Shown here piece by piece: positions 25,426-28,657 of a stretch of 51,889 nucleotides of DNA. The notes under the pieces are model-generated. The model worked only from the letters and a program-made list of their open reading frames with translations, made no database searches and had not been told where the DNA came from. This stretch comes from Candidatus Zixiibacteriota bacterium (GTDB taxonomy: Bacteria > Zixibacteria > MSB-5A5 > CAIYYT01). Within the stretch, counting starts at the first letter, position 1; every line of letters begins with the position of its first letter. The position numbers and the translations under genes are program-made. The stretch spans positions 1 to 51,889 of the forward strand of contig JADYYF010000027.1 of assembly GCA_020853795.1 (NCBI GenBank). The letters are read 5' to 3'.

Positions 25426-25710
25426 TCACAAATCTTCATATAGATCCCGCCATGTTGGATTGAAACTTTCGATGAGTCTCAGCTTCCAACCCCGATTCCA
25501 CTTCTTCAACTGCTTTTCCCGCGTGATGGCACTACGAATGTCTCCAGCTACCTCATAGTAAACCAGCATGTGTACGCCATACTTCGACGTGAAGCCTTCA
25601 ACCATGTCGGTCTTGTGCTCCCACACTCGCCCCTTGAGGTCGGATGTTACACCGACATAAAGTGTCCCATTACGTCTGGACGCCAGGATGTAGACGTAGC
25701 CCGCTTTCAT
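25426..25710 (-). CDS. GIY-YIG nuclease superfamily protein
   Basis: 94 residues from ATG 25710 with a perfect AGGAGG 5 nt upstream. The GIY-YIG core is GYVYILASRRNGTLYVGVTSD, with Arg in DLKGRVWEHK and catalytic-type Glu in the later helix (SAITREKQLKKWNRGWKLRL). This is the single-domain type near UhbB/YhbQ. It is bracketed by REP-like palindromes on both sides, a common arrangement for this family, which suggests the gene travels or co-evolves with the repeat. Upstream in-frame codons to 25977 come from the repeat (CHPREGGDPGGN) and are not part of the protein. Confidence 0.88.
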   Translation of the reverse strand: MKAGYVYILASRRNGTLYVGVTSDLKGRVWEHKTDMVEGFTSKYGVHMLVYYEVAGDIRSAITREKQLKKWNRGWKLRLIESFNPTWRDLYEDL

Positions 25711-25717
25711 ATTGCCT

Positions 25718-25746
25718 CCTGGATCCCCGCCTTCGCGGGGATGACA
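25718..25746. repeat. REP-like palindrome (right of GIY-YIG gene)
   Basis: TGGATCCCCGCCTTCGCGGG followed by GATGACATC has the palindrome ATCCCCGC-cttc-GCGGGGAT. It is inverted relative to the copy at 25381-25407 and abuts the ribosome binding site of the GIY-YIG gene. Confidence 0.85.
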
Positions 25747-25822
25747 TCGCTTGATAATAACGCTGCCCCTTCTGCCCCAACCCAACGATTGTGCTCCCCT
25801 GACCACCACGCTCGCGCTCAAC

Positions 25823-26332
25823 TCAGTTTGCCCGCGCCCGCTCCACCTCTTGCCAGAGCAGGTTCGCGTAGTTTTCCGCATCGTAGTAGCCCGGAACTCT
25901 CTGCAGTTCGCTGCCGTCGTTGTCGAAAAAAATCGTCGTCGGATATCCCCTGACACCAAATACCGCGCGCACAGCATCGTGACAGCTCATCGTCGAATCA
26001 CCGACCGTGATCAGACTGTCGCTGTCGCCGTCGATAATGCACGCCGCGAAATACTTCTCCACCAGACCCATCACGCTGCGATCGGTCAGCGTCTCCTCCC
26101 GCAACTTCTCGCACCAACCGCACCAGTCGGCGCCGACGATCAGAATCGATGCCGTTTTCGCATTCGCGCCCGTCCAGATGACGCTCGTCGACTGCCAATG
26201 AATCGTGTCGGCCAGCGGCGCAATCCCGTACTGGTACTCCGGCGCTACGGTATCATCGCCGCAGCCGACCATCCCGACCGATAACATGACCAGCGCTGCC
26301 AGAGCGCTGCAAAACCTCAATCGACCACCCAT
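25823..26332 (-). CDS. Thioredoxin-like lipoprotein
   Basis: 169 residues from ATG 26332. The signal sequence LRFCSALAALVMLSVGMVGC suggests a lipoprotein with Cys24, although Met at -3 is unusual. The thioredoxin fold has the active site GADWCGWCEKLREET (C71, C74) and cis-proline segment FGVRGYPTTIFFDNDGSEL. The pair SMSC adds another cysteine. Such proteins reduce or isomerise disulfides of exported proteins. It has no gene partner on its strand. Confidence 0.85.
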   Translation of the reverse strand: MGGRLRFCSALAALVMLSVGMVGCGDDTVAPEYQYGIAPLADTIHWQSTSVIWTGANAKTASILIVGADWCGWCEKLREETLTDRSVMGLVEKYFAACIIDGDSDSLITVGDSTMSCHDAVRAVFGVRGYPTTIFFDNDGSELQRVPGYYDAENYANLLWQEVERARAN

Positions 26333-26993: not shown

Positions 26994-27389
26994 ATGAGAC
27001 TCTCAAACCTGATGCGACTGGGCGTGCTGGTCGCCCTTTTAGCGACACTTACCGCCTGCTCCTCCGACAATGGTACCAACCCCGGCAACGGTGGCGGCGG
27101 TGGTGGCGGCGGCACACGCGAATTCGTCTCGCCCACCCTGAACAACGGCGATGCTTACCAGCACACGTTTAATGCCGCCAAGACTGTCCGCTACTATTGC
27201 CGCTTCCATGGCGGTCCCGGCGGCGTCGGCATGTCGGGCATTATCACCGTCACGGCCACCGGAACCATCGAAACCCGTGCGGTCGAAATCACCGGCAACA
27301 CGCTGCCCAGCCTCACCGTCGCGCAAGGCTCCACGGTCCGCTGGACCAACGAGGACAACGTGCCCCATACCGTCGAATCGGACAACTGA
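26994..27389 (+). CDS. Lipoprotein with apparently circularly permuted cupredoxin domain
   Basis: 131 residues from ATG 26994 (GAGG 9 nt upstream). A lipobox (LLATLTAC, Cys22) is followed by a glycine linker. Then the parts of a plastocyanin-like domain come in reversed order: first the C-terminal half (FVSPTLNNGDAYQHTF, then VRYYCRFHGGPGGVGMSG with the Cys, His and Met copper ligands), then the N-terminal half (LPSLTVAQGSTVRWTNEDNV, then PHTVESDN with the first His ligand), where the protein stops. All four type 1 copper ligands are present. It would be a membrane-anchored copper or electron-transfer protein. A tandem-domain protein cut at both ends is the alternative. Confidence 0.75.
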   Translation: MRLSNLMRLGVLVALLATLTACSSDNGTNPGNGGGGGGGGTREFVSPTLNNGDAYQHTFNAAKTVRYYCRFHGGPGGVGMSGIITVTATGTIETRAVEITGNTLPSLTVAQGSTVRWTNEDNVPHTVESDN

Positions 27390-27397
27390 GCCGGCCG

Positions 27398-28531
27398 CTA
27401 CTTCACCAGCGTCAACTCCGGCCGGTCCGACTTGGTGAAATAAAACGCCCAGACGATGATGATCACGATCTGGCGCATCAGCGAAAACAGCGGATAATCC
27501 TGCATCCGCGCACCGCTGTCCAGCGGTGGATTCAGCAGCGTCAGCGCCAGGAAAAGCAGTGCCAGCATCGTCAGGTAGAGAAAGAAATTCAGCTTGAAGC
27601 TGCGCTTGCAGGCCGCCAATTGCCAGATCAGAAATCCGACTGTTGCCAGATGACCGAGCCCGAACACCATCATCGTCGCATCCCGGTAGATCTTCAGCAT
27701 CAACATCTCGAACAATTGCATGCCGAAAATCAGCACGAGATTCACCATCAGGACCAATAGCCCGCCCCTGATTCCGACCCGATCGCTCGCGGCCGCTGCA
27801 TCAACTGCACTTTCAGCCGGCTGATCATTTGACTCCTCTTCGGCTTCGGCCAACTCCCCCTCCTCGACTCCCGTCTCCGCCTCGGCCGTCTCGTTGAGGT
27901 CAACTTCTGCCTCCTCTGCTTCGGCCTCCGTGTCCTCGTCCGAGGATACCTCCTCTGCCACTGGGACAACGGCGGGCGCTTCGCTGACCGCCTTCTCAAA
28001 ACACGCGGCGCACAAGAACTGCCCCCGATGCGAGTACACCTCCATGGCCGTCAGGTCGGCCCCGCATCTGCCACACTCGTTGACCTCCGCTTCGGGATGC
28101 TTCTTGATATCGATCTCTGCCGGCTCCAGCCCGGCCGCCGGCTCTCCTCCAGTAGCCGTCTCGTCGGTCTCTTCTGCTTCCGCTGCGGCAACTTCCTCGT
28201 ATTCGCCCTCCGGCGTCGATCGCGCCATCCGCGGGTACTTGACGTATTGCGACTCGCCGCACTCCGGGCAGGTAAATTCCCCCGCCTCCAAGTCCCCGCG
28301 ATCCAGCGTCAGCTCGACATCACAGGATTGACAGACGGCATCCGCGCGGACCCGCCTTAATCCGGCCGCGCGGTACGCGGCGACTTCCGCTTCCGCCACC
28401 CCGCGCTCACGCAGAAGCTGCTCCAGTGCAGCCACACCTTCAAACGAATACTGGCTCTTTTCAAACGCACAAACGTGCAGAATCTCTTCGGTGCTCCAGG
28501 TCTTGAGCACATCGTAGATGTCGCTGTCCAT
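27398..28531 (-). CDS. Zinc-ribbon membrane protein with DUF2569-like C-terminus
   Basis: 377 residues from ATG 28531 (GGGGAG 9 nt upstream). Residues 1-50 (STEEILHVCAFEKSQYSFEG) are a helical start. Two zinc ribbons follow (CQSCDVEL/CPECGES and CGRCGADL/CAACFEK), then a very acidic linker (EVSSDEDTEAEAEEAEVDLN) and, from about residue 250, four membrane helices ending IIVWAFYFTKSDRPELTLV, which resembles DUF2569. The function is unknown. It is transcribed divergently from another zinc-ribbon gene at 28716 and its stop lies 8 nt from the cupredoxin gene end. Confidence 0.8.
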   Translation of the reverse strand: MDSDIYDVLKTWSTEEILHVCAFEKSQYSFEGVAALEQLLRERGVAEAEVAAYRAAGLRRVRADAVCQSCDVELTLDRGDLEAGEFTCPECGESQYVKYPRMARSTPEGEYEEVAAAEAEETDETATGGEPAAGLEPAEIDIKKHPEAEVNECGRCGADLTAMEVYSHRGQFLCAACFEKAVSEAPAVVPVAEEVSSDEDTEAEAEEAEVDLNETAEAETGVEEGELAEAEEESNDQPAESAVDAAAASDRVGIRGGLLVLMVNLVLIFGMQLFEMLMLKIYRDATMMVFGLGHLATVGFLIWQLAACKRSFKLNFFLYLTMLALLFLALTLLNPPLDSGARMQDYPLFSLMRQIVIIIVWAFYFTKSDRPELTLVK

Positions 28532-28657
28532 CGGCAATGCTCCCCTCAGTCCGGCGCGCACGCCGGGCCCGGCAATCAGGATTTCTTCGTAAAATAGCGT
28601 TGGCCACGCCCTCCACCGCAACAATTTTCCGGCGCGCAGCTACTCCCGTGTTTAATA

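Follow-up and report, generated by a model that had tools for sequence, protein, structure and literature searches.

A circularly permuted cupredoxin domain in a predicted lipoprotein of a Candidatus Zixiibacteriota bacterium

Cupredoxins carry four ligands that form a type 1 copper site and transfer one electron at a time through an exposed His of the C-terminal loop. In plastocyanin, both natural termini sit at one end of the barrel, at the pole away from the copper, and are therefore easy to join within one chain. The purple cupredoxin of Nitrosopumilus maritimus (PDB 5fc9) has an open site without an axial Met. Permutants of azurin were reportedly opened at loops between early strands, one of them the loop between the third and fourth, and are said to keep the fold and the type 1 copper with a raised reduction potential. 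To our knowledge, circular permutation of blue copper proteins is known only from protein engineering. Cupredoxins are a standard case for the view that a protein scaffold dictates the geometry of its copper site, and circularly permuted azurins were built as a test of it. Such azurins were engineered by Yu et al. (Protein Sci 26:218, 2017; reference 41 of PMC6288478).

The DNA analysed here is a stretch of 51,889 nucleotides (the window), in which one gene encodes a small lipoprotein-like cupredoxin with the two halves of its domain in swapped order. The same permuted layout was found in three genomes from two families of the class, namely that of the window (G000), G010 and G004. We consider it likely that this is a naturally permuted, lipid-anchored cupredoxin with a type 1 copper site, which serves as a tethered electron carrier and originated by duplication. 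A search of a collection of open-access papers turned up no single-domain cupredoxin that is circularly permuted in nature. According to an earlier note, no described cupredoxin of this layout was known from such bacteria. Permuted azurin had already been made by engineering, and what is new is the natural occurrence only.

Layout of the gene and its putative product

The translation of the open reading frame runs MRLSNLMRLGVLVALLATLTAC-SSDNGTNPGNGGGGGGGG-TREFVSPTLNNGDAYQHTFNAAKTVRYYCRFHGGPGGVGMSGIITV...LPSLTVAQGSTVRWTNEDNVPHTVESDN, followed by the stop codon (Table 1). In the mature chain, Cys22 is followed by the Ser/Asn/Gly linker with its Gly8 run, then by TREFVSPTLNNGDAYQHTFNAAKTVRYYCRFHGGPGGVGMSGIITV (the second half), the ATGTIETR joint, AVEITGNTLPSLTVAQGSTVRWTNEDNVPHTVESDN (the first half) and the stop, the C-terminus lying six residues past H125. 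The lipobox LTAC22, judged by eye, and the linker behind it are those of a bacterial lipoprotein, and the lipoboxes of the orthologs read ILGC (G010) and VIGC (G004). The Ser following Cys22 would fit sorting to the outer membrane under the Escherichia coli rule, which may not apply here. A scan for promoters and terminators around the gene gave nothing informative.

Table 1. Features of the permuted cupredoxin gene in the window
Feature	Position	Strand	Evidence
Permuted cupredoxin lipoprotein ORF (131 aa + TGA; ATG at 26994, TGA at 27387-27389)	26994..27389	+	Sequence; same-layout orthologs in G010 and G004
Lipoprotein signal peptide, lipobox L19-T-A-C22 (lipidated Cys codon 27057-27059)	26994..27059	+	Sequence; ortholog lipoboxes
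Flexible Ser/Asn/Gly linker (SSDNGTNPGNGGGGGGGGTR)	27060..27119	+	Sequence; Gly- or Ser-rich in 3/3 orthologs
Canonical second half, now in front (FVSPTL and last three strands)	27120..27257	+	Pfam, NCBIfam and PDB matches; rotation test; AF2 strands
Codon of ligand C69	27198..27200	+	
Codon of ligand H72	27207..27209	+	
Codon of ligand M80	27231..27233	+	
New joint ATGTIETR, old C-terminus to old N-terminus	27258..27281	+	Cys-to-Trp spacing compared with tandem cupredoxins
Canonical first half, now last (AVEI..LTV..TVRWTN..PHTV-ESDN)	27282..27386	+	Pfam, NCBIfam and PDB matches; rotation test; AF2 strands
Codon of ligand H125	27366..27368	+	

The residues H125, C69, H72 and M80 stand in the motifs HTV and C-x2-H-xn-M and are invariant in all three members. 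Together they are predicted to build a type 1 copper site, in which H72 is presumably the exposed His of the C-terminal loop. The protein most likely acts in the periplasm as a membrane-tethered one-electron carrier. Its lipid tether would enter at the side of the barrel, in the loop between strands 4 and 5, rather than at the first strand, which would change the orientation of the domain at the membrane.

Several other features were seen around the permuted genes. In the window, a gene for a 408-aa protein (27398-28624, minus strand) converges with the cupredoxin gene; its product combines zinc-ribbon-like CxxC pairs with a low-complexity, acidic middle part and hydrophobic segments towards the C-terminus, and matches the Pfam HypA family only below threshold. 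A small GIY-YIG-like ORF (KAGYVYILASRRNGTLYVGVTSDLKGRVWEH...) occupies 25426-25977 on the minus strand, and a palindromic repeat, GGATCCCCGCCTTCGCGGGGATGACATC, lies in its start region at about 25719-25748. The repeat, a REP-like element adjoining a GIY-YIG-like gene, recurs in G001, G002 and G004. In G004 (L079, G004:C237, 1101-3175), the permuted gene is preceded on the same strand, at a distance of about 200 bp, by a gene for an Fe/Mn superoxide dismutase, and a convergent arsenite-methyltransferase-like ORF lies on its other side.

A protein that binds copper but does not transfer electrons, such as a chaperone, a sink, a sensor lipoprotein or a factor in protection against oxidative stress, is an unlikely alternative. 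The examined part of the window shows no linked redox enzyme, and the superoxide dismutase gene upstream in G004 would suit a role in oxidative stress. Against this, the full Cys-His-His-Met type 1 set is normally redox-active in the family, no copper-export or copper-sensor gene was seen adjoining the permuted gene, and the three genomes have no gene neighbourhood in common. The three loci show neither synteny nor a conserved operon that would point to a redox partner for the proposed electron carrier.

Order of the halves in sequence and predicted structure

Sequence searches recognise the two halves separately and in reversed order. Pfam PF00127 (Copper-bind) scores 27.6 bits over the whole protein, against a gathering cut-off of 21.2, in two stretches, the best of which places residues 50-86 on profile positions 65-98. 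The NCBIfam models for plastocyanin (TIGR02656, 2.5e-7) and amicyanin (TIGR02657, 6.5e-7) also match in two stretches each, the best being residues 50-86 on positions 65-98 for the former and residues 104-127 on positions 10-33 for the latter; the scores of 31 and 29.7 bits do not reach the respective equivalog cut-offs of 87.85 and 110.2 bits. With phmmer, PDB entry 5fc9 is matched at 8.3e-11 overall, query residues 106-129 falling on chain positions 23-46 and residues 42-79 on positions 55-90.

In a rotation test, every rotation of the mature domain was scored with an HMM built from 73 canonical cupredoxin domains of the fetched loci, with the permuted proteins left out, and 200 shuffles of each protein served as control. 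In native order, the proteins of the window, G010 and G004 score 39.6, 47.2 and 50.0 bits and cover only model positions 44/47-84/85. At the best rotation, the scores rise to 80.5, 87.9 and 84.7 bits and the coverage extends to positions 11/16-84/85; the best rotation point coincides in all three, while the shuffle maxima are 8.0-9.3 bits (8.0 for the window). This gain in score and coverage indicates that the chain contains the whole domain, opened in the loop after HTV-ESD. The family order, with the first His ahead of the Cys-His-Met cluster, is reversed here, and the native score is about half of the rotated one. All three members thus have the full complement of a domain, with the old termini joined and new termini elsewhere, and rotation restores a single alignment, which is a circular permutation.

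At the site of the cut, canonical relatives read SDAGTELDSP (L095) or SDVGDELESG (L094) in the alignment. The permuted proteins end in ESDN-stop or ISD-stop, and their domains begin with GTREFVSP, GGREFVSG or GPELGSS, from which it follows that the domain core is complete and none of it was lost. The earlier note had described a lipobox, a Gly linker, this order of motifs and the position of the stop, all of which are as read from the open reading frame; its further claim, that the two halves make up one complete domain in swapped order with four ligands, agrees with both the profile matches and the rotation test. By its sequence, and indirectly by its predicted fold, the product is a cupredoxin.

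The 93-residue domain was modelled with AF2 from a shallow alignment of 7 rows, of which six were fragments covering half a domain. The model is one compact domain (pLDDT 87.6, pTM 0.80), comparable to that of a canonical control, the Chloroflexi relative L023 (pLDDT 90.9, pTM 0.80). Its strands span residues 16-20, 25-33 and 39-49 in the second half, and 56-61, 69-72, 76-81 and 87-91 in the first half. According to DSSP, the L023 strands 54-58, 63-71 and 77-87 equal the former three at an offset of exactly -38, strands 24-29 and 35-39 equal 76-81 and 87-91 at exactly +52, and strands 16-20 and 2-8 correspond to 69-72 and 56-61 within two residues. Even the isolated bridge residues 45 and 49 of L023 are found at 7 and 11. 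After rotation, the predicted strands therefore correspond one to one to those of the canonical relative. The earlier note had named a predicted fold with the PHTV His far from the Cys-His-Met cluster as a refutation of its reading; on this, the confident model and the correspondence of its strands bear indirectly.

Sequential structure searches with Foldseek behave differently with the two models. The control L023 gives 302 PDB matches at E<=0.001, the best 50 of the 302 being cupredoxin-fold proteins, whereas the permuted model gives no PDB match at E<=0.001 and nothing significant in the viral library BFVD. By a rough estimate, a half-length match would lie near E 10 or higher. The changed connectivity makes this absence of sequential matches expected, and it is not a positive proof of the fold.

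In the proposed topology, a short linker would join the old C-terminal strand (TITV) to the old N-terminal strand (VEI), and the new termini would open in the loop that leads from the HTV strand (strand 4) to the F.S..L segment, a plausible site for new ends. Both halves of one chain would then fold into an ordinary plastocyanin-like sandwich. The halves could also pair between chains, giving a domain-swapped dimer or a filament, with the dimer as the unit and two copper sites each built from two chains. The order of the halves allows such swapping and the sequence forbids nothing in it; it is nevertheless quite improbable, as the joint is as long as the linkers between tandem neighbours, the AF2 model of the monomer is confident, and the general position of the plastocyanin termini makes closure within one chain easy.

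Conservation, distribution and origin

Full-length orthologs with the lipobox, the linker, the cut and the stop at the same place as in the window are present in G010, which belongs to another family of the class (55% identity to the window protein), and in G004, which belongs to the same family as the window (46%). The gene is under purifying selection: dN/dS is 0.28 for window/G010 and 0.22 for G010/G004, two pairs in both of which dS is near saturation, dS of window/G004 being not computable. A tblastn search of the flanks (about 1 kb) with canonical domains found the two expected halves only and no complementary half. Truncation, frameshift or assembly error is therefore excluded in practice by the orthologs with the same layout and stop, by dN/dS values of 0.2-0.3 and by the absence of a stray half. 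The earlier note had proposed a search for homologs of the same order, and these are the two orthologs; it had also held that homologs with a second full domain, together with truncation of this gene, would speak against its reading, and instead the orthologs are permuted and the flanks clean.

The assembly that contains the window is 99.9% complete. A profile search of 133 genomes of the class and phylum found no permuted member beyond the three, and G001, the nearest genome to that of the window (same genus, 89% complete), has no match to the permuted protein. Overlapping samples of 400 genomes from the phylum of G134 and 396 genomes from the class of G133, both chosen through Chloroflexi records, gave no permuted member either. 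The same holds for 191 relatives of G135 (a Patescibacteria record), for 380 genomes of its phylum, and for viral contigs and plasmids. Genome contigs scanned with one protein query yielded canonical relatives only.

In trees of the rotated permuted domains and canonical domains, the permuted ones fall among the small cupredoxin domains of the same class, and most of the canonical proteins closest to them are small lipoproteins of the class with the motif S[DN].G.EL.S at the cut site. The domains of the window and G010 are sisters (100/93 in the second tree) and adjoin canonical L095 of G105. That of G004 stands apart from them: the first tree places it close to L045/L046 (other handles of the genes L094/L096), the second gives its position no resolution, while a single clade of the three is not rejected by the AU test (p 0.20). 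A turn between strands 1 and 2 that is two residues shorter (TL--PS or TL--QS) is found in all three permuted proteins and in 0 of the 33 canonical rows of the alignment. This shared turn favours a single origin of the permutation, and the trees leave room for the same permutation having arisen more than once. The copper loops read HGGPGGVGM (window) and HGGAGGVGM (G010), resembling those of the Chloroflexi and Patescibacteria relatives L022-L024; that of G004, HPSM, is short and amicyanin-like.

The parent was most likely the class's own family of canonical small lipoproteins. Tandem cupredoxins of 2-5 domains abound in the class, and some of them have dockerin-like or sorting tails (L006-L008, L010-L014, L017 and L018, in genomes G021, G028, G005, G044, G027, G039, G022, G037, G053 and G009). 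From Cys to Trp, the permuted proteins have 48, 48 and 43 residues, and neighbouring domains of the tandems 41-45; those with 48 have a Cys-Met copper loop that is 5 residues longer, which leaves 43 after subtraction. A joint of about the length of a tandem inter-domain linker fits a duplication after which the outer halves were lost. We infer a tandem stage: one of these canonical lipoproteins was probably duplicated in frame, and copy 1 would then have lost its first half and copy 2 its second. We give hardly any credence to the idea that the gene is a truncated or frameshifted remnant of a tandem cupredoxin (half of domain 1 and half of domain 2), non-functional or complete by accident: tandems are common in the class, the protein spans their inter-domain junction and the joint has the right length, but layout and stop persist at 46-55% identity under the constraint described, nothing of the missing halves remains within about 1 kb, the fusion to a normal signal peptide and linker falls exactly in the loop, and the nearest canonical tree rows are mostly single-domain lipoproteins.

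In the three genomes with the permuted gene, nothing matches the family of canonical small lipoproteins strongly. This hints that the permuted protein has replaced the canonical one, three genomes being too few for a test. It is possible, if doubtful, that a few lineages exchanged the canonical lipoprotein for the permuted type 1 protein because a tether moved to the loop between strands 4 and 5 alters the presentation of the copper face to membrane partners, and perhaps the potential. The window's genome also encodes a cupredoxin domain of canonical order that is joined to CHRD-like repeats with the motif HIHFGAP (L082, G000:C156:613-864, minus strand); its open frame is at least 328 aa long.

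Comparison with known cupredoxins

A permutant maintained by selection is a natural test of whether connectivity matters for folding, the copper site and the reduction potential, and the canonical sister lipoproteins of the same class are matched controls. There is also a practical blind spot, in that sequential structure searches and equivalog models overlook such proteins.

The permuted protein resembles the canonical small lipoproteins of the class (for example L094/G073, L095/G105, L096/G023 and L101/G053) in having a lipobox-like signal, a short linker and one domain. They have the S[DN].G.EL.S loop in common and are among its nearest tree rows after rotation, but in them the HTV half comes first and the domain ends after the last strand. 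With plastocyanin and amicyanin (PF00127, TIGR02656 and TIGR02657), it has in common the H-C-H-M ligands, the strands of the sandwich and the motifs WTN..PHTV and YYC..H...M, the halves being in the opposite order. The purple cupredoxin 5fc9 is the best PDB sequence match of both permuted halves and also one of the top structural matches of the control L023; it is of canonical order, and where it lacks the axial Met, the permuted protein has M80. The tandem cupredoxins of the class contain the permuted unit within them, made up of the second half of a domain and the first half of its neighbour, with a nearly equal spacer, but there it is flanked by whole domains, while the window protein is a free permuted domain. 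Finally, the engineered permuted azurin is man-made and not a lipoprotein, and its scaffold is azurin, whereas the protein described here is a small plastocyanin-like lipoprotein.
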